Below are positions 32,058 to 46,635 of a DNA stretch of 64,000 bases, piece by piece. Source of the DNA: an uncultured Bacteroidales bacterium (GTDB taxonomy: Bacteria > Bacteroidota > Bacteroidia > Bacteroidales > Muribaculaceae); contig CADAZN010000021.1 of assembly GCA_902792435.1 (NCBI GenBank), positions 38,340-102,339 on the forward strand, in the 5' to 3' direction. The stretch's first letter is position 1, and each line of letters opens with the position of its first letter. The notes under the pieces were generated by a model, which ran no database searches, had not been told where the DNA came from, and worked only from the letters and a program-made list of their open reading frames with translations. The translations under genes were made by a program, and so were the position numbers.

Positions 32058-33263
32058 TTAATCAACAACCCAGTTGCGATTGAACACTTCGTTTCCAGCC
32101 GTGCTGCGATAAAGCGAGTCATGTTTTGGTATCTTAACTTTATAGACCTTGCCGGAGTCGTTGGGAAGACGAGTGCTTCTTATCCAAGGATTGGCTTCAC
32201 GCAGCTGTGCGTAGGTGATGTCATGCCCTTGGGCCCATGTCACCCAACTATCGACTGGAGTGTCGACCGTCTCAATATCGTACTCAATGGGTTGATATAG
32301 CTGATTTTCTTTTATTTGATATCCAAAACGCTTGGGGTCGCTGAGGAAAATCTTGTAGGCAATAATTCGGAAATAGTATCTCGAAGTTTCTTCGTTGAGC
32401 CTGAGGTCGAAGACACTGTTTGCCTTCTGCCTTACCAACGAGGAGTCGATTCCTGCCATTCCCACATTGTAACCTGAACACACTGTAGCCCAATTACCAA
32501 ATTTAGAATAATACTTTTTCAAAAATTTGCAAGCAGCCACAGTCGACTTTTCGATATCATACCTCTCGTCAACAAATTCATTGACCTCCAATTCATAATC
32601 TCGGCCTGTTGATGGCATGAACTGCCAAATTCCGGCAGCCCCTGCAGGTGACAATGCTTTGATGTTGAGCGAGCTCTCGGCCACTGCGAGATAAACCAAA
32701 TCTTCAGGCACGTTATTATCCTTGAGAATCTTAGTCAGTATTGGGAAATAGCGATTTGCACGTTTTATAATGAAGGTTGAGTTTGTCTGCCCATAGATAG
32801 TGCCAGTTAGTTCACGGTCGAGACGCTCGGCCATGTCGATGCGGTCAAAAGCCACGTTTTCGCCACAGAACTTCATACTATCAGGAATCTCGGGTGCTAG
32901 CACTGATGCTAATTTTCCATCGAAATTACTAGAGGCCCGCTCGTTAGTTGTTTCTACTTTCTGGGGCGTAGAATAGGCAATATCATCGGTGGTATCATGA
33001 GAACTTGCACAGCTCTTAGGTGCCATGAGGATGAGTATAATAAGTTGAGCTATAGCAAAAAATGCAAGCACTGCAATCAAAATGTTGCGAAAGGTAGCCC
33101 CTCCCTTGGGTTTGGGCGGGTTATTTTCATCTCCTGTGATGTTATTTTCAGCTACGGGTGGCTGGTTTTCTTGAGCGACAGTATTGCTAGATGCGGCAGG
33201 GGGCTGAAATGGAGGCGGCTGACTTCCCGCTACGGGGGGCTTGTTCTTGTCGTTGGGATTCAT
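32058..33263 (-). CDS. Membrane-anchored GH23 lytic transglycosylase-like protein
   Basis: 401 residues. A Pro/Asn-rich cytoplasmic N-terminus (1-55) is followed by a transmembrane helix (60-81) and a periplasmic SLT (GH23) domain (about 145-330) with the catalytic Glu196 in AVAESSLNIKALSPAGAAGI and WQFMPSTGR. The C-terminal part (340-401; YAQLREANPWIRSTRLP, YKVKIPKHDSLY) is LysM-like. GH23 enzymes cleave peptidoglycan between MurNAc and GlcNAc. Compared with its neighbour at 33304, two conserved spots are altered: SGYNVGMAGI replaces the family YNAG motif and GRDYELEVN replaces GKNYGLEVN, so activity may be reduced or changed. It lies 40 bp after the paralogue and 22 bp before uvrA. Confidence 0.85.
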   Translation of the reverse strand: MNPNDKNKPPVAGSQPPPFQPPAASSNTVAQENQPPVAENNITGDENNPPKPKGGATFRNILIAVLAFFAIAQLIILILMAPKSCASSHDTTDDIAYSTPQKVETTNERASSNFDGKLASVLAPEIPDSMKFCGENVAFDRIDMAERLDRELTGTIYGQTNSTFIIKRANRYFPILTKILKDNNVPEDLVYLAVAESSLNIKALSPAGAAGIWQFMPSTGRDYELEVNEFVDERYDIEKSTVAACKFLKKYYSKFGNWATVCSGYNVGMAGIDSSLVRQKANSVFDLRLNEETSRYYFRIIAYKIFLSDPKRFGYQIKENQLYQPIEYDIETVDTPVDSWVTWAQGHDITYAQLREANPWIRSTRLPNDSGKVYKVKIPKHDSLYRSTAGNEVFNRNWVVD

Positions 33264-33303
33264 TACTTATAAAAGAAAGAATGATAAAAACAAAAACTTA
33301 AAA

Positions 33304-34245
33304 TTAGTCGACCACCCAATTGCGATTATAAACTCGGTTGCCAGCGCTAGAGCGGTAGAGTGAATCATGCTTTGGAATCTTCACTTTGTAAACCTTTCCC
33401 GAAGCATTAGGAAGCTTTGTGCTACGAATCCAAGGATTGGCATCGCGCAACTGAGCATAGGTTATTCCTTGCTCCTTGGCCCAAGTTATCCAATTGGAAA
33501 CAGGAGTATTCACTTTGATAACATCATATTCTATTGGCTGGTATAGCTGGTTGGCATGTAGCCTGTAACCATAGGCTTTGGGATTCTCGAGGAAAATCTT
33601 GTAGGCGATGATGCGGAACACATACCTTGAAGTCTCGGTAACAAGCCTGAGATCAAACGAATTTCTCACCTGCTGTTTCTCGAGCTCACTGGTAATTCTT
33701 CCAGTTCCAGCATTATAGCTAGCACAGACTGTAGGCCAATTTCCATATTTAGAATAAGCGTTTCTCAAATATTTACATGCAGCAACAGTCTCCTTTTCGG
33801 GGTCGTATCTCTCGTCGACATCATCATTGACCTCCAAGCCATAATTCTTACCTGTTGATGGCATGAACTGCCAAATTCCAGCAGCTCCTGCAGGTGATAA
33901 TGCATTGATATCGAGCGAACTCTCGGCCACAGCAAGATAGATGAGATCTTCGGGCATGTTATTCTCCTTGAGAATCTTAATCAGCTCTGGGAAAAAGCGG
34001 TTTGCGCGCTTTATGATGGTGGTTGTAAGAGTTTGTCCATATATAGTGCCAGTGAGTTCACGGTCGAGACGCTCGGCCATATCGATGCGGTCGAAGCTAA
34101 CTTTCTCGCCACAAAACTTAACTGACATGGGAAGTTCGGGGCTAGTGACCATCAAGTGTTCAATATCTCCTCGCTGAGCATAGGCCGACATTGCCGACAG
34201 ACACACAACAGCTATTATAATAAAAAGATGTTTTAGGTGTTTCAT
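33304..34245 (-). CDS. Secreted GH23 lytic transglycosylase
   Basis: 313 residues with a signal peptide (1-23, ending MSAYAQ). The GH23 domain carries the catalytic Glu108 in AVAESSLDINALSPAGAAGI, WQFMPSTGKNYGLEVNDDVD and an intact CASYNAGTGRI motif. The C-terminal 60 residues (YAQLRDANPWIRSTKLP, YKVKIPKHDSLYRSSAG) are nearly the same as in the membrane-anchored paralogue at 32058, so the two are products of a tandem duplication that kept the enzyme but changed the targeting signal. It probably acts on periplasmic peptidoglycan. It lies 66 bp after the type-B T9SS protein gene. Confidence 0.9.
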   Translation of the reverse strand: MKHLKHLFIIIAVVCLSAMSAYAQRGDIEHLMVTSPELPMSVKFCGEKVSFDRIDMAERLDRELTGTIYGQTLTTTIIKRANRFFPELIKILKENNMPEDLIYLAVAESSLDINALSPAGAAGIWQFMPSTGKNYGLEVNDDVDERYDPEKETVAACKYLRNAYSKYGNWPTVCASYNAGTGRITSELEKQQVRNSFDLRLVTETSRYVFRIIAYKIFLENPKAYGYRLHANQLYQPIEYDVIKVNTPVSNWITWAKEQGITYAQLRDANPWIRSTKLPNASGKVYKVKIPKHDSLYRSSAGNRVYNRNWVVD

Positions 34246-34311: not shown

Positions 34312-35655
34312 CTATAGTCCGGGATCGTCGAGTGGGCTATTAATATCTCTCCTCTCGTAACGCAAGATGTTGATGTCGCCACTGAGCTTGTAGTCCTTAC
34401 CATCGCTGCCTTTGGCCTTAATAACATAGAAATAGACTCCAGTGTTCACTAACTTGCCTCGGTAAGTACCATCCCATCCGTCGGAGGGGTCAGTAAACTC
34501 CTTAATTAGATTACCCCATCGGTTATAAATCCAACAATGGAACTCAACTATCGATTTATAGGAAACTTTCCAGATATCGTTATCGCCTTCGGTGGTTCCT
34601 GGCGAGAAGAAATTTGGGCACATCAATATACTTTCGCCGATGTTTACTGCAATGGGGTCACTGTAATATTCGCATGAGCCATCGCTATTGGCGGCATAGA
34701 ATCTCCAATAGGTAGTTCCCGCATCGGTAAAAGTGTATTCCACTTCATCTTGCGAGAAGTTCATCAGCAAGTCATTAAACTCGGGGAAGCTGCTCACCTG
34801 CCACTCCTTGTAGGAAACAGCGTCGGTACAATAAGCTTTAAAAGTGATTGTTACTGGTGCTGAGCCTCCGAGCCCAGCGCCTTGGATATTCTGCTCATTG
34901 TCATTTTCTCGCTCTTCTTGAGTTGTTACTATTTCTACGTTAATAGCCTTAGTCTGGAAAGTTCCTGTTGTTTTGCTTTTCTTCTCGTTCCAGAACTCAA
35001 GAAACTTGTCTCCACTGATAGTGAATTGAGTGTCGCAATAAGGAGCAGGAACAGCAATAGTGTTCTTTAAGAACCTCTCTTCCTCAGTCACCTGTTGCTC
35101 TTTCCAAGTGGAGTTTTCACTATCCCACTCAAGAGTATTATAGGTTATTTTTATTTCACGGTCAAGAGTCTTATTGCCATCATACTTAATCTCGGGGCCA
35201 CTGCCGTCGATGTGCAGGATTGCTGTACCGCAGTCGCTTGCATCTTGGTCGGCTTCAGCACTGTTGAGATGAAGTCGGCATTTGCTGTAGTCGATGACCC
35301 ACAAATAGGTAGTTTGAGATTCACCTTCCTTGATGATGTAGCCCCTATCAGCCCTCACCGGATTCAAAGAAGTAACATTGCCATTGTGGTCGACATCTAT
35401 ATCGTTGTAAACCCTCTCGCCCAAATCGTTGATGACTATTTCTTGCCAGCTCACATTGTCGGGGTCGGTGCTGGCTGTATAGTTCATCGACACACCTTGT
35501 GCCGAGTATAACACATAAACAGCCATGCTGCCTGTGTTGGAAGATTTTCCTTCAACATAGACTGGCTTACTGTTGCCTTCAAAGCTAACTTGTGCCACAG
35601 CTGATGACACGCACATAGCCAAAATGGCCATTAAAAGATATTTAGCATTTTTCAT
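34312..35655 (-). CDS. Secreted protein with gliding-motility-type (T9SS type B) C-terminal domain
   Basis: 447 residues from the ATG at 35655; an upstream in-frame start at 35715 gives no signal peptide. Signal peptide 1-21 (AKYLLMAILAMCVSSAVAQ). The middle is beta-rich and of unknown function, with a PKD/Ig-like stretch near the end (TFKAYCTDAVSYKEWQVSSF, FTDAGTTYWRFYAANSDG). The last ~90 residues match the type-B sorting domain: CPNFFSPGTTEGDNDIWKVS, CWIYNRWGNLIKEF, DGWDGTYRGKLVNTGVYFYV. Such proteins are exported by T9SS and held at, or released from, the surface. It sits between the acyl-carrier-protein gene (77 bp) and the lytic transglycosylases (66 bp), the likely order of one transcript. 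Its partner or ligand is unknown. Confidence 0.85.
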   Translation of the reverse strand: MKNAKYLLMAILAMCVSSAVAQVSFEGNSKPVYVEGKSSNTGSMAVYVLYSAQGVSMNYTASTDPDNVSWQEIVINDLGERVYNDIDVDHNGNVTSLNPVRADRGYIIKEGESQTTYLWVIDYSKCRLHLNSAEADQDASDCGTAILHIDGSGPEIKYDGNKTLDREIKITYNTLEWDSENSTWKEQQVTEEERFLKNTIAVPAPYCDTQFTISGDKFLEFWNEKKSKTTGTFQTKAINVEIVTTQEERENDNEQNIQGAGLGGSAPVTITFKAYCTDAVSYKEWQVSSFPEFNDLLMNFSQDEVEYTFTDAGTTYWRFYAANSDGSCEYYSDPIAVNIGESILMCPNFFSPGTTEGDNDIWKVSYKSIVEFHCWIYNRWGNLIKEFTDPSDGWDGTYRGKLVNTGVYFYVIKAKGSDGKDYKLSGDINILRYERRDINSPLDDPGL

Positions 35656-35732
35656 ATACTTAATAAACGTAATAGCAATGCTAAAAATTGTACCTAAAGC
35701 ATCATGGCACACCATTGCTTAAATCACAAACA

Positions 35733-36308
35733 TTATTCGAGTTCAAGAGAGCCTTCAGGCTGGTCCTTGGGATTCTCCTTTGAGTTCCTAACAAAATCAA
35801 CGATGTCCTTCACCGTTTGTATTGAATTAACAGTCTCCTCGGGAATCACAACGTTAAACTGCTTTTCTACATCAATCAGTAATTCAACCACACCGAGAGA
35901 GTCAAGTCCCAGGTCGGTTGTCAGTTTGGACATAGGCTTAACCATCCATGGTTTGAGATTTGCTTTCTTGGCAGCGAGGTCGATAACATTGTTATAGATG
36001 GTATCGGAAGCTTGCGAAGGTTTCTTGGGATAACGTGGGGGACCTCCATAGACCTTAGGCCTTCGCACTCCATACATGAGCTTTACTTGATTGTCTCTCA
36101 CGCGTGGAGGAATTTGAGCGATGAGATCGTCGAAGTCCACACTTTGCCCATCGATTCTTACTTCATCGGCAGCTGTAAGCTCCACCTCGGGATTACTGCT
36201 CGGTTTTGGAGCATCGGGTGAAGGCGTTGCCGCCATAGCGCCAGTAGTGACACCAGCGGCTACCACTGCTCCGAGCGCAAGTTTGCGTTTTTTATTATCC
36301 TTGTTCAT
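35733..36308 (-). CDS. Signal-peptide-bearing acyl carrier protein fusion
   Basis: 191 residues, without a single cysteine. Residues 1-26 look like a signal peptide: basic KKRK, hydrophobic LALGAVVAAGVTTGAMA and an AMA cleavage site. A low-complexity Pro/Ala/Ser linker (27-45) leads to a segment 45-100 containing the aromatic motif MYGVRRPKVYGGPP (78-91). Residues 103-175 form a complete acyl carrier domain with the phosphopantetheine serine Ser137 in DLGLDSLGVVELL, and helix IV FNVVIPEETVNSIQTVKDIV. Carrier domains are normally cytoplasmic, so fusion to an export signal is unusual. It lies 11 bp downstream of a radical SAM/SPASM gene whose relatives (as I recall TIGR04133) are paired with a small lipoprotein; here there is no lipobox. 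It could be a modified substrate, a carrier for an exported modification, or a cytoplasmic ACP with a membrane anchor. Confidence 0.8.
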   Translation of the reverse strand: MNKDNKKRKLALGAVVAAGVTTGAMAATPSPDAPKPSSNPEVELTAADEVRIDGQSVDFDDLIAQIPPRVRDNQVKLMYGVRRPKVYGGPPRYPKKPSQASDTIYNNVIDLAAKKANLKPWMVKPMSKLTTDLGLDSLGVVELLIDVEKQFNVVIPEETVNSIQTVKDIVDFVRNSKENPKDQPEGSLELE

Positions 36309-36319
36309 AGTGTTCTATA

Positions 36320-37390
36320 TTATAGTTTTACATTCTTCAATCGGTTGTAGTGGCAAAGCATCACGTCGCCATTGCTGTCGCGCAAGTGGAAGCCGTTGCC
36401 CTGACAAAAACGGAACATGTCGCAATCGGCGCAAATGCCGCGCTTCATCCACTGGCGGTTGCGGTAGATGTCAAAACGGTTGTTCCACACATCCCAGAAG
36501 CTATCGCGGTAGATATTGCCCTGCTGATAGTCGCTTCGAATACTAAGGCATCCTGAGATGCTTCCATCGGCACGAATGCTCGCAACTGTCAAGCCTGCTT
36601 CGCAGGTATAGAAATAGTCACGCACCATTCCCTCGTAAGGTCCCAGAAATCCCTCGCAAGCATAATTGAGGTCAATTTTCCCTTCCAATCGCGTCTTTAC
36701 GATAAAGTTCAGCAAGTCGCGGAACTGATAGTCGGTAAGTTGTAGCTCATCAAGTCCTGCCGCCCTTCCCATGGGAATGATAGTGAAGCATCGCCACTGC
36801 TTCACACCCGCATCGATGAGCAATTGTTTTATCTCGTCAAGGCTATTGATGTTGCGTGAGTGAACGCAAGTAATCACGTCCCATTCGAGGTCTTCAATGC
36901 GTTGCATTTGCTCAATGGCTCTCATGGCTCGGTCGAAACTTTGGTCATTATTACGAAGCCAGTTGTGCTGGTCACGTGTGCCGTCAATGTCGACTGCCAT
37001 ACTGTCGATACCTGCTTCGGCAAGACTATCCATCATTTTCTCGTCGAGCAAGTGACCGTTAGTCACCATGCCCCACTGGAATCCACGTCGCTTTATTTCA
37101 CGACCGCACTCCACAATGTCGCTCCTTACGAGCGGTTCCCCTCCCACAGTTTGAACTAGAACATTAGTGGGATCGATGTGAGCGGCAATCTCATCCAGAA
37201 CTGGCAAGAAGTCATTGAGAGGCATCTCAGTTCCCTTCAAATCCTTAGCACAGTCACTGCCACAGTGCCGGCATGACATATTGCAACGCAGTGTACACTC
37301 CCAAAAGAGTTGATCTAATGGATGCTCGCGGCACAGCTGCTCATTTTGCTGTCGCACCGCTTCGAGTGCTATTTCTTGTGACGTAGTCAT
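36320..37390 (-). CDS. Radical SAM/SPASM enzyme (TIGR04133-like, rSAM/lipoprotein family)
   Basis: 356 residues. The radical SAM cluster motif is CNMSCRHC (C36, C40, C43), in the family context LFWECTLRCNMSCRHCGSDC. GGEP-like VQTVGGEPLVRSDIVECGRE follows. The C-terminal SPASM-like region has CEAGLTVASIRADGSISGC, GNIYRDSFWDVWNNRF, RGICADCDMFRFCQGNGFHL and a final LCHYNRL cysteine, enough for one or two auxiliary clusters. These enzymes modify peptide or protein side chains. The gene starts the operon and precedes the ACP-fusion gene by 11 bp, so that protein is the likely substrate or partner. The -7 box ends only 9 bp before the ATG, which predicts an almost leaderless mRNA. The next in-frame Met lies inside the cluster motif, so this start is firm unless a non-ATG start exists. 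Confidence 0.88.
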   Translation of the reverse strand: MTTSQEIALEAVRQQNEQLCREHPLDQLFWECTLRCNMSCRHCGSDCAKDLKGTEMPLNDFLPVLDEIAAHIDPTNVLVQTVGGEPLVRSDIVECGREIKRRGFQWGMVTNGHLLDEKMMDSLAEAGIDSMAVDIDGTRDQHNWLRNNDQSFDRAMRAIEQMQRIEDLEWDVITCVHSRNINSLDEIKQLLIDAGVKQWRCFTIIPMGRAAGLDELQLTDYQFRDLLNFIVKTRLEGKIDLNYACEGFLGPYEGMVRDYFYTCEAGLTVASIRADGSISGCLSIRSDYQQGNIYRDSFWDVWNNRFDIYRNRQWMKRGICADCDMFRFCQGNGFHLRDSNGDVMLCHYNRLKNVKL

Positions 37391-44237: not shown

Positions 44238-44276
44238 AAACCGCCATTCAAGCTTTTTATCGCTGAATGGCGGTTT
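44238..44276 (-). terminator. Intrinsic terminator of pnp
   Basis: AAACCGCCATTCA and its exact complement form a 13-bp stem around a 13-nt loop, followed on the minus strand by seven T. It lies 59 bp beyond the pnp stop codon. Confidence 0.9.
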
Positions 44277-44334
44277 GTTATCGATTGTAAGTTTCCAGGT
44301 CTCAGTTGTCAGAAAGAAAACTGTGAACCAAAAA

Positions 44335-46635
44335 CTAGTTCCTGTCCTCGTAGCTCTGGTCGTTGCGGTCGTCACGGCGACGATCGCTGTTACGGTTGTC
44401 GCGACGTGGGCCACGGTTGTCGTTGCGACGAGGGGCATTGCCACCATTGCGGCGAGGGCCATTGCCACCGTTTCCGTTGCGTGGACCACCGTTGCCACGT
44501 GGGCGGTTGCCACCGTTGCCATTGCGGCGCTCCTCAAAGCCCTCGGGCTTCTCCTGAAGAGCACGCATCGAGAGGCGGAACTTGCCGGTCTTCTTGTCAA
44601 TCTCAATAAGCTTGACAGTAACCTCGTCACCCTCGTGCAAGCCACTAGCCTCCATGTCGGCCAAACGCTCCCAGCTAATCTCGCTGATGTGCAAGAGGCC
44701 TTCCTTACCAGGCATGAACTCAACAAATGCACCAAACTCAAGGATGCTCTTGATTGGGCCTGTGTAGATAGTTCCCTCCTCGGGCACAGCGATGATAGCC
44801 TTGATGCGCTCAACTGCAGCCTCGATGCTGTCTTTGTTGGCAGCCGAGATTTCAATCTCGCCCTTGCCGTCGATCTCATCGATAGTGATTACAGCACCAG
44901 TCTCCTCCTGGATGCCTTGGATAACCTCACCACCCTTGCCAATGATAGCACCAATGAACTCCTTGTCGACAGTCATTGCCACGATGCGTGGAACGTGTGG
45001 CTTGTAATCCTCACGAGGCTCAGGAATTGTCTCGTTAATAATATTGAGGATGTGCAAGCGTCCGTTGCGAGCCTGGCTCAAAGCCTGCTCGAGAATCTCG
45101 TAGGGAAGTCCGTCACACTTGATATCCATTTGAGTGGCGGTGATACCGTTAACAGTACCAGTCACCTTGAAATCCATGTCACCAAGGTGGTCCTCGTCAC
45201 CGAGGATATCGCTCAATACGGCATGCTTCACGTTGCCCTCGTCGGTGATGAGACCCATAGCAATACCAGCCACAGGGCGTTTCATCTTAACACCGGCATC
45301 AAGCAGAGCCAGAGTGCCACCGCAAACTGTAGCCATCGACGAAGAGCCGTTGCTCTCGAGGATGTCGCTCACGATGCGGCAGGTGTAGGGGAAGTCATCG
45401 GGGAACATGCGCTTGAGAGCGCGATGTGCCAAGTTGCCGTGACCAATCTCGCGACGGCTCACGCCACGTGGTGCACGAGCCTCGCCAGTAGAGAATGCTG
45501 GGAAGTTGTAGTGGAGCAAGAAGCGCTCGTTGCGGCGTGTGAGCACGTCGTCGATAAGCTTCTCATCAAGCTTGGTTCCCAAAGTAACAGTTGCGAGCGA
45601 CTGAGTCTCGCCACGGGTGAAGACAGCGCTTCCGTGAGGGCCGGGAACATAGTCGGTCTCGCACCAGATGGGACGAATCTCGGTGGTCTTGCGGCCATCC
45701 ATGCGGATGCCCTCATCAAGGATCACGCGGCGCACTGCATCGCGCTGCACGTCGTGGAAGTAGCGGTTAATCATTGGAGTCTTCTCCTCGCGCTCCTCCT
45801 CGGGAATGGTCTCGATGAAGTCCTCGAGAATCTTATCGAAGCTGTCGTTGCGCCAGTGCTTGTCGGGGTTACCAGCCTTAGCGATGTCGTAGCATGGCTG
45901 ATAGCACTCTTTGCGTACGCGCTCCTTAATTTCCTCGTCGTCAACCTCGTGACAATATTCACGCTTGGTCACGCCGAGCTGAGCAGCAAGCTCCTTCTGA
46001 GCCACGCACATGGGCTTGATAGCGTCGTGCGCAAACTTGAGAGCTGCGATGAGGTCTTCTTCTTGAACTTCGTCCATCTCACCCTCCACCATCATAATAT
46101 TGTCGTAAGTAGCACCTACCATCAATTCCATGTCAGCGTTTTCGAGTTGTTCGAAGGTGGGGTTGATAACGAAGTTGCCGTCGATGCGTGCTTCCTCGAA
46201 AGGCACGTCGCTCACGGCGATAGCTGCACTAGCAGCGAGTCCAGCGAGAGCGTCGGGGCAATCGGCGCCGTCGCTCGAGAACATAAGGATGTGGACGATA
46301 GTGTTGGCGTGATAGTTCGATGGGAACAAAGGCCTGAGCACGCGGTCCACGAGGCGTGCTGTCAAGATTTCGTAGTCGCTGGCACGACCTTCACGCTTGG
46401 TGAAGCCGCCAGGGAAACGTCCGAAGGAGGAATATTTCTCCTTGTATTCAACTGTGAGGGGCATAAAGTCGGCACCCTCTTCGGCATCCTTAGCCGAAAC
46501 AACGGTCGCTAACAACATGGTGTTGTTGAAGCGCAATTCAACTGCTCCATCGGCTTGCTTAGCAAGCTTTCCTGTTTCGAGGGTGATCTCGCGTCCGTCA
46601 CCCAATACGATGGTTTTCTTAGTAGGTGTTAACAT
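44335..46635 (-). CDS. pnp: Polyribonucleotide nucleotidyltransferase (PNPase) with Arg/Gly/Asn-rich tail
   Basis: 766 residues. Two RNase PH domains (about 10-140 and 310-545; [60 protein letters not shown]), an all-helical linker, a KH domain ([20 protein letters not shown]) and an S1 domain ([20 protein letters not shown]) are all present. It degrades RNA 3' to 5' with phosphate. The last ~70 residues form a low-complexity tail of [14 protein letters not shown]-type repeats ending in Arg/Asp-rich sequence, likely disordered and RNA-binding. A -7 box (TACCTTTG, minus) is at 46669-46676, preceded after 6 bp by the 24-bp element shared with pepO-like and argS promoters. The opposite strand shows a long open frame that is only a codon-bias shadow. 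Confidence 0.96.

Follow-up and report, generated by a model that had tools for sequence, protein, structure and literature searches.

What does a radical S-adenosylmethionine (SAM) enzyme with a SPASM domain modify, if the protein encoded directly downstream combines an export-like N-terminus with an acyl carrier protein (ACP) fold? The question is raised by a gene pair in the genome of an uncultured Bacteroidales bacterium of the Muribaculaceae, located within a stretch of 64,000 nucleotides (contig CADAZN010000021.1, positions 38,340 to 102,339 of the forward strand; assembly GCA_902792435.1) that is called the window in the following. The original prediction had allowed for two answers: a carrier-borne modification system, or an ACP fusion whose aromatic segment with two tyrosines is the modified substrate. 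The analysis favours the second answer. The tyrosine of the X-Tyr-Gly (XYG) motifs in the linker of the partner protein is the probable target of the enzyme, and backbone splicing is the likeliest chemistry, because the motif is enriched next to enzymes of this family, because Tyr-Gly is invariant in the relatives of the partner, and because XYG is the published motif of the splicease PlpXY, which is reported to excise tyramine from the protein backbone (PMC10533398; PMC11002830; PMC10373908).

The gene pair and its Tyr-Gly motif

The enzyme gene (positions 36320-37390 of the window, minus strand) encodes 356 residues and matches TIGR04133 with 522.6 bits (cut-off 425) over the full length of the model (enzyme residues 5-352, model positions 3-350 of 350). 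It also matches Radical_SAM (PF04055, 75.2 bits) and SPASM (PF13186, 33.3 bits; residues 263-324, 36419-36604, minus strand). The CxxxCxxC motif of radical SAM enzymes, which accommodates the [4Fe-4S] cluster, is present as CNMSCRHC (residues 36-43; 37262-37285, minus strand), and Cys36, Cys40, and Cys43 are invariant across nine aligned enzymes. The family assignment made from this motif and the SPASM-like cysteines has thus held, and no unrelated radical SAM family was assigned. In NCBIfam, both TIGR04133 and its partner family TIGR04134 have the status of hypothetical equivalogs only. The genome (2.96 Mb in 56 contigs) contains a second TIGR04133 gene on contig C4 (490.1 bits), which lies beside a lipoprotein-like protein with VYGPP twice.

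The partner gene (35733-36308, minus strand) follows 11 bp downstream and encodes 191 residues without any cysteine. Both frames are intact, no frameshift was seen, and the same two-part protein recurs beside the same enzyme type in other genomes, so that the fusion is genuine as predicted. The protein starts with basic residues followed by an A/G/V-rich hydrophobic stretch ending in AMA, continues with the block LTAADEVRIDGQ and the segment MYGVRRPKVYGGPP, and ends with a PF00550 domain containing Ser137. The basic and hydrophobic N-terminus with its AxA (residues 1-32; 36213-36308, minus strand) is a putative signal or membrane anchor. The segment MYGVRRPKVYGGPP (residues 78-91; 36036-36077, minus strand) contains two XYG sites, MYG and VYG, and is the proposed modification site. 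In the predicted structure the ACP fold is confident at about residues 100-178 (predicted local distance difference test scores of about 82-92) and confidence is low elsewhere, which suggests that the Pro-rich linker is probably disordered.

TIGR04133 enzymes scoring above the cut-off were found in 63 of 101 genomes of the window's genus, 18 of 149 of the family, and 87 of 393 of the order. The neighbourhoods of 193 enzymes were examined (79 from the genus, 9 further from the family, and 105 from the order, including four, L274-L277, that were kept although they score below the family cut-off). A same-strand open reading frame (ORF) with the pattern YG.?P is present within 400 bp of the enzyme at 68/79 loci of the genus, 9/9 of the family, and 91/105 of the order, and several of the loci missing the pattern carry YG without a close Pro. 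To judge the enrichment, ORFs within 150 bp of the enzyme (near sets) were compared with ORFs of the same strand at a distance of more than 700 bp (far sets, which contain more ORFs than the near sets). Because four of the 193 enzymes have no same-strand ORF of 45-350 residues within 150 bp, 189 near sets remain. YG.?P occurs in 159 of these but in only 30 of the 190 far sets. Patterns with another aromatic residue or His in place of Tyr are not enriched: FG.?P is found in 5, WG.?P in 3, and HG.?P in none of the near sets, versus 18, 10, and 21 of the far sets. If three-residue patterns are counted in the longest adjacent ORFs without any preselection, YG.P comes first (112/189, 39-fold), while CY.T, YGP, and CYG rank above it if sorted by fold alone. 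The residue before Tyr is variable (V, C, E, M, K, L, and others). In named genomes, a same-strand YG ORF lies within 250 bp at 69 of the best 80 of 478 loci, a few of these ORFs being long unrelated genes, and a looser pattern with nearby Pro is found at 63. Enzymes with 52-61% identity, homologous by this identity and not by a TIGR04133 score, are encoded in cultured Bacteroides, Phocaeicola, Xylanibacter, and Alistipes. Thus, the usual neighbours of a TIGR04133 enzyme are envelope-type proteins, one or more per locus, which differ in architecture but have X-Tyr-Gly-x-Pro-like motifs in common.

A module family with exchangeable ends

The partner in the window belongs to a family of 67 proteins at 46 loci of the window's genus, which were collected by their N-terminal module and not by YG. 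Weak or spurious matches to the N-terminal hidden Markov model (L128_29, L072_76, L074_0) and two short frames of L152 were left out of the counts. The distance from the enzyme to the first module start is at most 70 bp at 40 of the 46 loci. The recurrence supports the pairing of TIGR04133 enzyme and partner. The N-terminal module alone (E 1e-5) was found in 38 of 397 genomes of the family, all of which belong to the window's genus (1 of 30 genera). Two of the genomes with modules, G192 and G234, have no TIGR04133 gene above the cut-off; in G234 the contig ends where the modules begin.

All 67 linkers contain YG, whereas 200 shuffles gave 17.1 on average and never more than 31. In the 50 members that have an ACP-like end, only five columns are invariant: M1, A46, A47, Y79, and G80, and in addition Y87 and G88 are conserved in at least 90%. 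A46 and A47 belong to the block LTAADEVRIDGQSVDFDD (residues 43-60; 36129-36182, minus strand), which is a possible recognition segment for the enzyme. The proposal that the aromatic segment is the modified substrate is therefore the one of the two earlier answers that we retain. It could also be imagined that the XYG proteins are unmodified binding or structural partners, that the motif is a docking site, and that the substrate is encoded elsewhere. In agreement with this, a module pair persists in G192 without an adjacent TIGR04133 gene. However, each protein has one to three copies of the motif (two in 47/67), and more than one partner gene is found in tandem at 15/46 loci. Repeated motifs and duplicated genes are usual among the substrates of peptide-modifying radical SAM enzymes, and a mere docking function is thus quite improbable.

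The C-terminal ends of the 67 proteins are of two kinds: 50 have an ACP-like fold and 17 a TonB_C domain (PF03544 in 17/17). The partners are thus modular, consisting of an anchor-like N-terminus with a TAADxVxIDG block, a Pro-rich XYG linker, and an exchangeable globular end. Concerning the N-terminus, the 18-residue hydropathy maximum is at least 1.4 in 66 of the 67 proteins, the net charge before the maximum is at least +3, an AxA-like motif is present in 65, and a lipobox-like Cys in 13. TonB_C is a periplasmic domain, and many partners of other kinds are lipoprotein-like in appearance. By these features the N-termini look exported or anchored. The predicted export signal of the partner in the window has stood as far as its basic start, hydrophobic stretch, and AxA are concerned; that the protein is exported is suggested by these sequence features and by the TonB_C relatives.

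The ACP end of the partner (residues 101-177; 35778-36008, minus strand) is identified by PF00550 (36.5 bits at residues 122-173, cut-off 20.8), by the structural model, and by its best PDB matches in Foldseek, which are ACPs (E 1.3e-5, TM-score 0.89 by target). Ser137 (codon at 35898-35900, minus strand) is part of a GLDSLG sequence and a potential phosphopantetheine site, so that the domain, the fold, and the Ser in DSL are all present. The score against the ACP equivalog TIGR00517 is below the cut-off (63.1 versus 70.45 bits). A separate ACP-like frame of 87 codons is found elsewhere in the genome (G000:C27:40513-40728). The family does not conserve the serine. Of the 49 ACP-type relatives that could be scored, 10 have kept the phosphopantetheine motif DS[LI] (the fiftieth, L146_65, is cut by a contig end), and four further proteins have a serine in the Ser137 column in another context. 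PF00550 was found in 29 of the 50 at E 0.01, and the others were called ACP-like from the alignment. L285, a serine-less member, has a modelled helical layout similar to that of the partner in the window; nearly all of the 50 PDB matches listed for it are ACPs or carrier-protein domains, but these are weak (best E 3.1e-3, none at or below 0.001).

These findings bear on the first of the two earlier answers, namely that the enzyme acts on a phosphopantetheine-bound group, or that such a group is moved to the linker, and that XYG is secondary. The normal GLDSLG context of Ser137 would agree with this, as would four loci (L068, L114, L120, L129) with tandem pairs in which only one of the two partners has DSL, which seem to indicate retention of the serine in some lineages. 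On the other side stand the small number of DS[LI] members, the 17 proteins with TonB_C instead, and seven scanned partners outside the module family (L337, L313, L323, L301, L065, L291, L358), which carry the Tyr-Gly motif but match no ACP family. Because neither Ser137 nor the ACP domain is conserved, a carrier-borne modification was dropped as the main explanation, and we regard it as very improbable. Instead, we propose that the ACP end serves mainly as a folded tail; phosphopantetheine may still be attached to it in the minority keeping DS[LI]. The first seven proteins had suggested that a lipobox Cys correlates with the absence of the ACP serine. This was rejected, since a lipobox-like Cys occurs in 2/10 DS[LI] proteins versus 11/40 of the others. 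By name, TIGR04069 (peptide maturation system acyl carrier-related protein) is also ACP-related in a peptide-maturation setting, but the partner matches it only weakly (26.5 bits, cut-off 70) and only at residues 123-169.

In a tree of the 193 enzymes, 47 form a group (Shimodaira-Hasegawa-like approximate likelihood ratio test 89) that comprises the 46 enzymes with module partners and L128, whose neighbour is of another type. Next to this group are four enzymes from the family and order level. Three of them (L082-L084) have partners with an A/G-rich N-terminus and EYGGP- or MYGGP-type motifs, in which no ACP domain is visible by eye. From the conservation pattern and the enzyme tree, the ACP end was probably gained in the window's genus, lost its carrier motif more than once, and was exchanged with TonB_C; the weaker forks of the tree leave the order of these changes unfixed.

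Some further observations concern the surroundings of these genes. At L284 (4152-5189, plus strand) a single frame apparently contains two TonB_C/XYG modules in series, that is a tandem pair in one frame, and at L152 (from 4635 onwards, genome G197) TonB_C-type modules are distributed over separate short frames that appear to be broken copies. Lipoprotein-like genes with PepSY_like (PF11396) are located just upstream of the enzyme at two ACP-type loci (L068:3499-3981, plus strand; L069:6642-7208, minus strand), and visual inspection showed similar frames next to L114 and L129. In the window, the gene directly downstream of the ACP fusion (34312-35715, minus strand) encodes a protein with CHU_C (PF13585), a type IX secretion signal. 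A functional tie to this protein was considered and rejected because a CHU_C-like motif is present within 4.5 kb downstream at only 16 of the 46 module loci. An RluA-like motif is found within 1.5 kb upstream, also at 16/46, and both neighbours are therefore read as local synteny. Farther downstream are two adjoining SLT lytic transglycosylase genes (32058-34245, minus strand), whose C-terminal parts closely resemble each other. A 745-codon open frame at 44275-46512 (plus strand) is antisense to a 766-residue frame (44335-46635, minus strand) and is probably spurious.

The proposed reaction at the X-Tyr-Gly site

By analogy to PlpXY, there is about an even chance that TIGR04133 enzymes splice tyramine out of XYG sites in envelope proteins. 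The enzyme would act on the XYG motifs of the linker and excise tyramine, and export of the modified protein and its display in the envelope would follow. Serine or cysteine proteases would be the most plausible targets for trapping by the reactive ketoamide, since spliceotides are protease inhibitors according to a report (PMC11117315). The partners could thus be envelope-displayed covalent protease inhibitors. The most specific form of this proposal, which is tentative and which we hold to be slightly less than an even bet, is that the TIGR04133/TIGR04134 pairs of gut Bacteroidales represent backbone splicing without an adjacent PlpY, generating alpha-keto-beta-amino residues at X-Tyr-Gly-x-Pro sites of envelope-anchored proteins and not of small released peptides. 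One rumen genus would have substrates with exchangeable ACP-like and TonB_C ends, a minority of which would perhaps have a phosphopantetheine thiol near the ketoamide.

Another tyrosine-specific reaction could also take place at Tyr-Gly-x-Pro, for example a C-C or C-O cross-link to a neighbouring residue, or a cleavage of the side chain or backbone without religation. A motif with Tyr only and Gly next to it points to the importance of the tyrosine and not to the type of reaction, the Pro that is frequent near the site is a potential cross-link partner, and the scores of the enzyme are not close to the characterised splicease. However, cyclophane-forming SPASM enzymes generally accept several aromatic residues, while the Phe, Trp, and His versions of the motif are not enriched here. 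In addition, XYG is the motif published for the splicease (PMC10533398; PMC11002830). Taken together, such a reaction seems rather unlikely to us.

Several observations weigh against the splicing of tyramine by these enzymes. The pattern YG.?P is missing from 30 of the 189 near sets. Single-linkage BLAST (E 1e-3) joins 136 of the 161 adjacent YG.?P ORFs in a single group and leaves the others in 11 further groups. Because so many partners are related by BLAST, the motif counts are not independent, and our estimate for Tyr as the target was reduced slightly; we still consider it probable. The genome G192 has a TonB_C-like and an ACP-like module (L366:5254-6540, plus strand) but no TIGR04133 gene, either within the 10 kb examined or, above the cut-off, genome-wide. 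It is a real exception to the pairing: a partner away from the enzyme was one of the findings that the original prediction had named as speaking against it, and this was observed once. With respect to the enzyme itself, the match to TIGR04103, which we take to be the family of PlpX, reaches 129.0 bits and is far under the cut-off of 725. The enzyme even scores slightly higher with AhbD (heme b synthase, 139.9 bits) and NirJ2 (130.9 bits). An attempt to place TIGR04133 next to PlpX by NCBIfam scores alone was given up because the scores could not do so. In favour of splicing, a tree of 60 sequences separates TIGR04133 and six enzymes of the TIGR04103 search from nine ACGX and four other SPASM enzymes (support 99/96), but the AhbD, NirJ, and PqqE families are absent from it. 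In addition, it was partly built from sequences picked for a high TIGR04103 score, with L365 left out, and is given little weight. Finally, PlpXY needs PlpY, and no recurring same-strand neighbour of at least 55 residues was found within 1.5 kb at 112 loci of the family and order, after setting aside XYG partners and frames overlapping the enzyme. The largest non-overlapping same-strand neighbour family at these loci comprises 102 ORFs in 85 loci, 90 of which have YG and a nearby Pro, and the next is present at 9 loci and has the motif at every one of them. The other neighbour families of at least 9 loci overlap the enzyme except for 10 frames on the opposite strand.

TIGR04133 enzymes are present in many gut and rumen Bacteroidales. 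The Tyr-specific, Pro-rich motif with Gly as the next residue, which is found across partner kinds, provides a concrete substrate site, at which splicing would cause a mass change of -135.08 Da per motif. If splicing is true, backbone-edited, protease-reactive proteins would be common in the envelopes of gut bacteria, and the enzymes that have no PlpY next to them might find use in protein editing. Since most members have lost the ACP serine and the ACP end is exchanged with TonB_C, the family would, if true, also clearly exemplify how a carrier fold is put to new use as a scaffold.

Comparison with known systems

A search of 395 genomes of the phylum with TIGR04103 identified seven loci (L359-L365), all below the cut-off. 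An adjacent XYG ORF, which speaks for the splicing proposal, is present at four of these (L359, L360, L362, L364), and none was found at L361, L363, and L365 within the stretch covered. At L362 (2619-3116, minus strand; genome G851) a protein of 165 residues ending in LLYGTPPVP is encoded beside the TIGR04103-like enzyme, and its homologue at L361 has no YG ending. At L364 (2955-3599, plus strand; genome G402) a protein with six KYGYP repeats is encoded directly downstream of the radical SAM enzyme, which scores 178 bits with TIGR04133, 218 with TIGR04103, and 233 with TIGR03913. This repeat protein is possibly a multi-site XYG substrate. At L359 and L360 (genomes G967 and G869), short peptides with PYGVA and LYGVG adjoin the enzyme; at L359 a DOT1-like methyltransferase frame follows the enzyme. 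These two loci lead to the GDL-motif maturases (TIGR03913) with DUF1843 peptides. The L360 enzyme (417.4 bits with TIGR04103) stands beside two DUF1843 peptides that have PYGVA and LYGVG near the N-terminus, and the L359 enzyme, which is close to it, reaches 533.7 bits with TIGR03913 (cut-off 591.75), with TIGR04133 as the third-best NCBIfam model (163.7 bits). The partners are short peptides instead of the anchored proteins of TIGR04133, and splicing of DUF1843 peptides is not implied by the likeness.

Among the closest known systems is the pair TIGR04133/TIGR04134 (rSAM_w_lipo and radical SAM-associated putative lipoprotein), and the enzyme in the window belongs to TIGR04133. TIGR04134 partners in Bacteroides clarus, Phocaeicola massiliensis, P. 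coprocola, and Xylanibacter ruminicola score 123-164 bits (cut-off 39.8), and a lipobox-like Cys in them is closely followed by EYGTP, or by MYGSP and MYGVP. In contrast, the partner in the window gives no match with TIGR04134 even at E 1, and its C-terminal part is an ACP fold. A TIGR04134 search of the window's genome gave no match, but the control genomes were equally silent, so that this search is uninformative. The pairing of TIGR04133 with a lipoprotein is already catalogued. Added here are the common motif, the modular ACP/TonB_C architecture, the dispensable ACP serine, and the mechanistic proposal. In a literature search, which was incomplete, no publication on the TIGR04133/TIGR04134 system was found. 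The survey by Scott 2022 is credited with 939 predicted splicease systems (PMC10533398) and may already include TIGR04133 enzymes.

For PlpXY, the natural sites are given as MYG and LYG and the splice tag as PIRPLYGLPI, which corresponds to YGxP (Richter 2023, PMC10533398). The PlpX family is given as IPR026482, and the plp precursors are described as having Nif11- or nitrile-hydratase-like leaders (PMC11002830). As far as these accounts go, the likeness is that a SPASM radical SAM enzyme is encoded next to substrates in which X-Tyr-Gly is repeated, and with MYG and VYG the linker of the partner in the window has sites of this kind. One difference is in the substrates: where the plp precursors have those leaders, the partners of TIGR04133-type enzymes are anchor- or lipoprotein-like.

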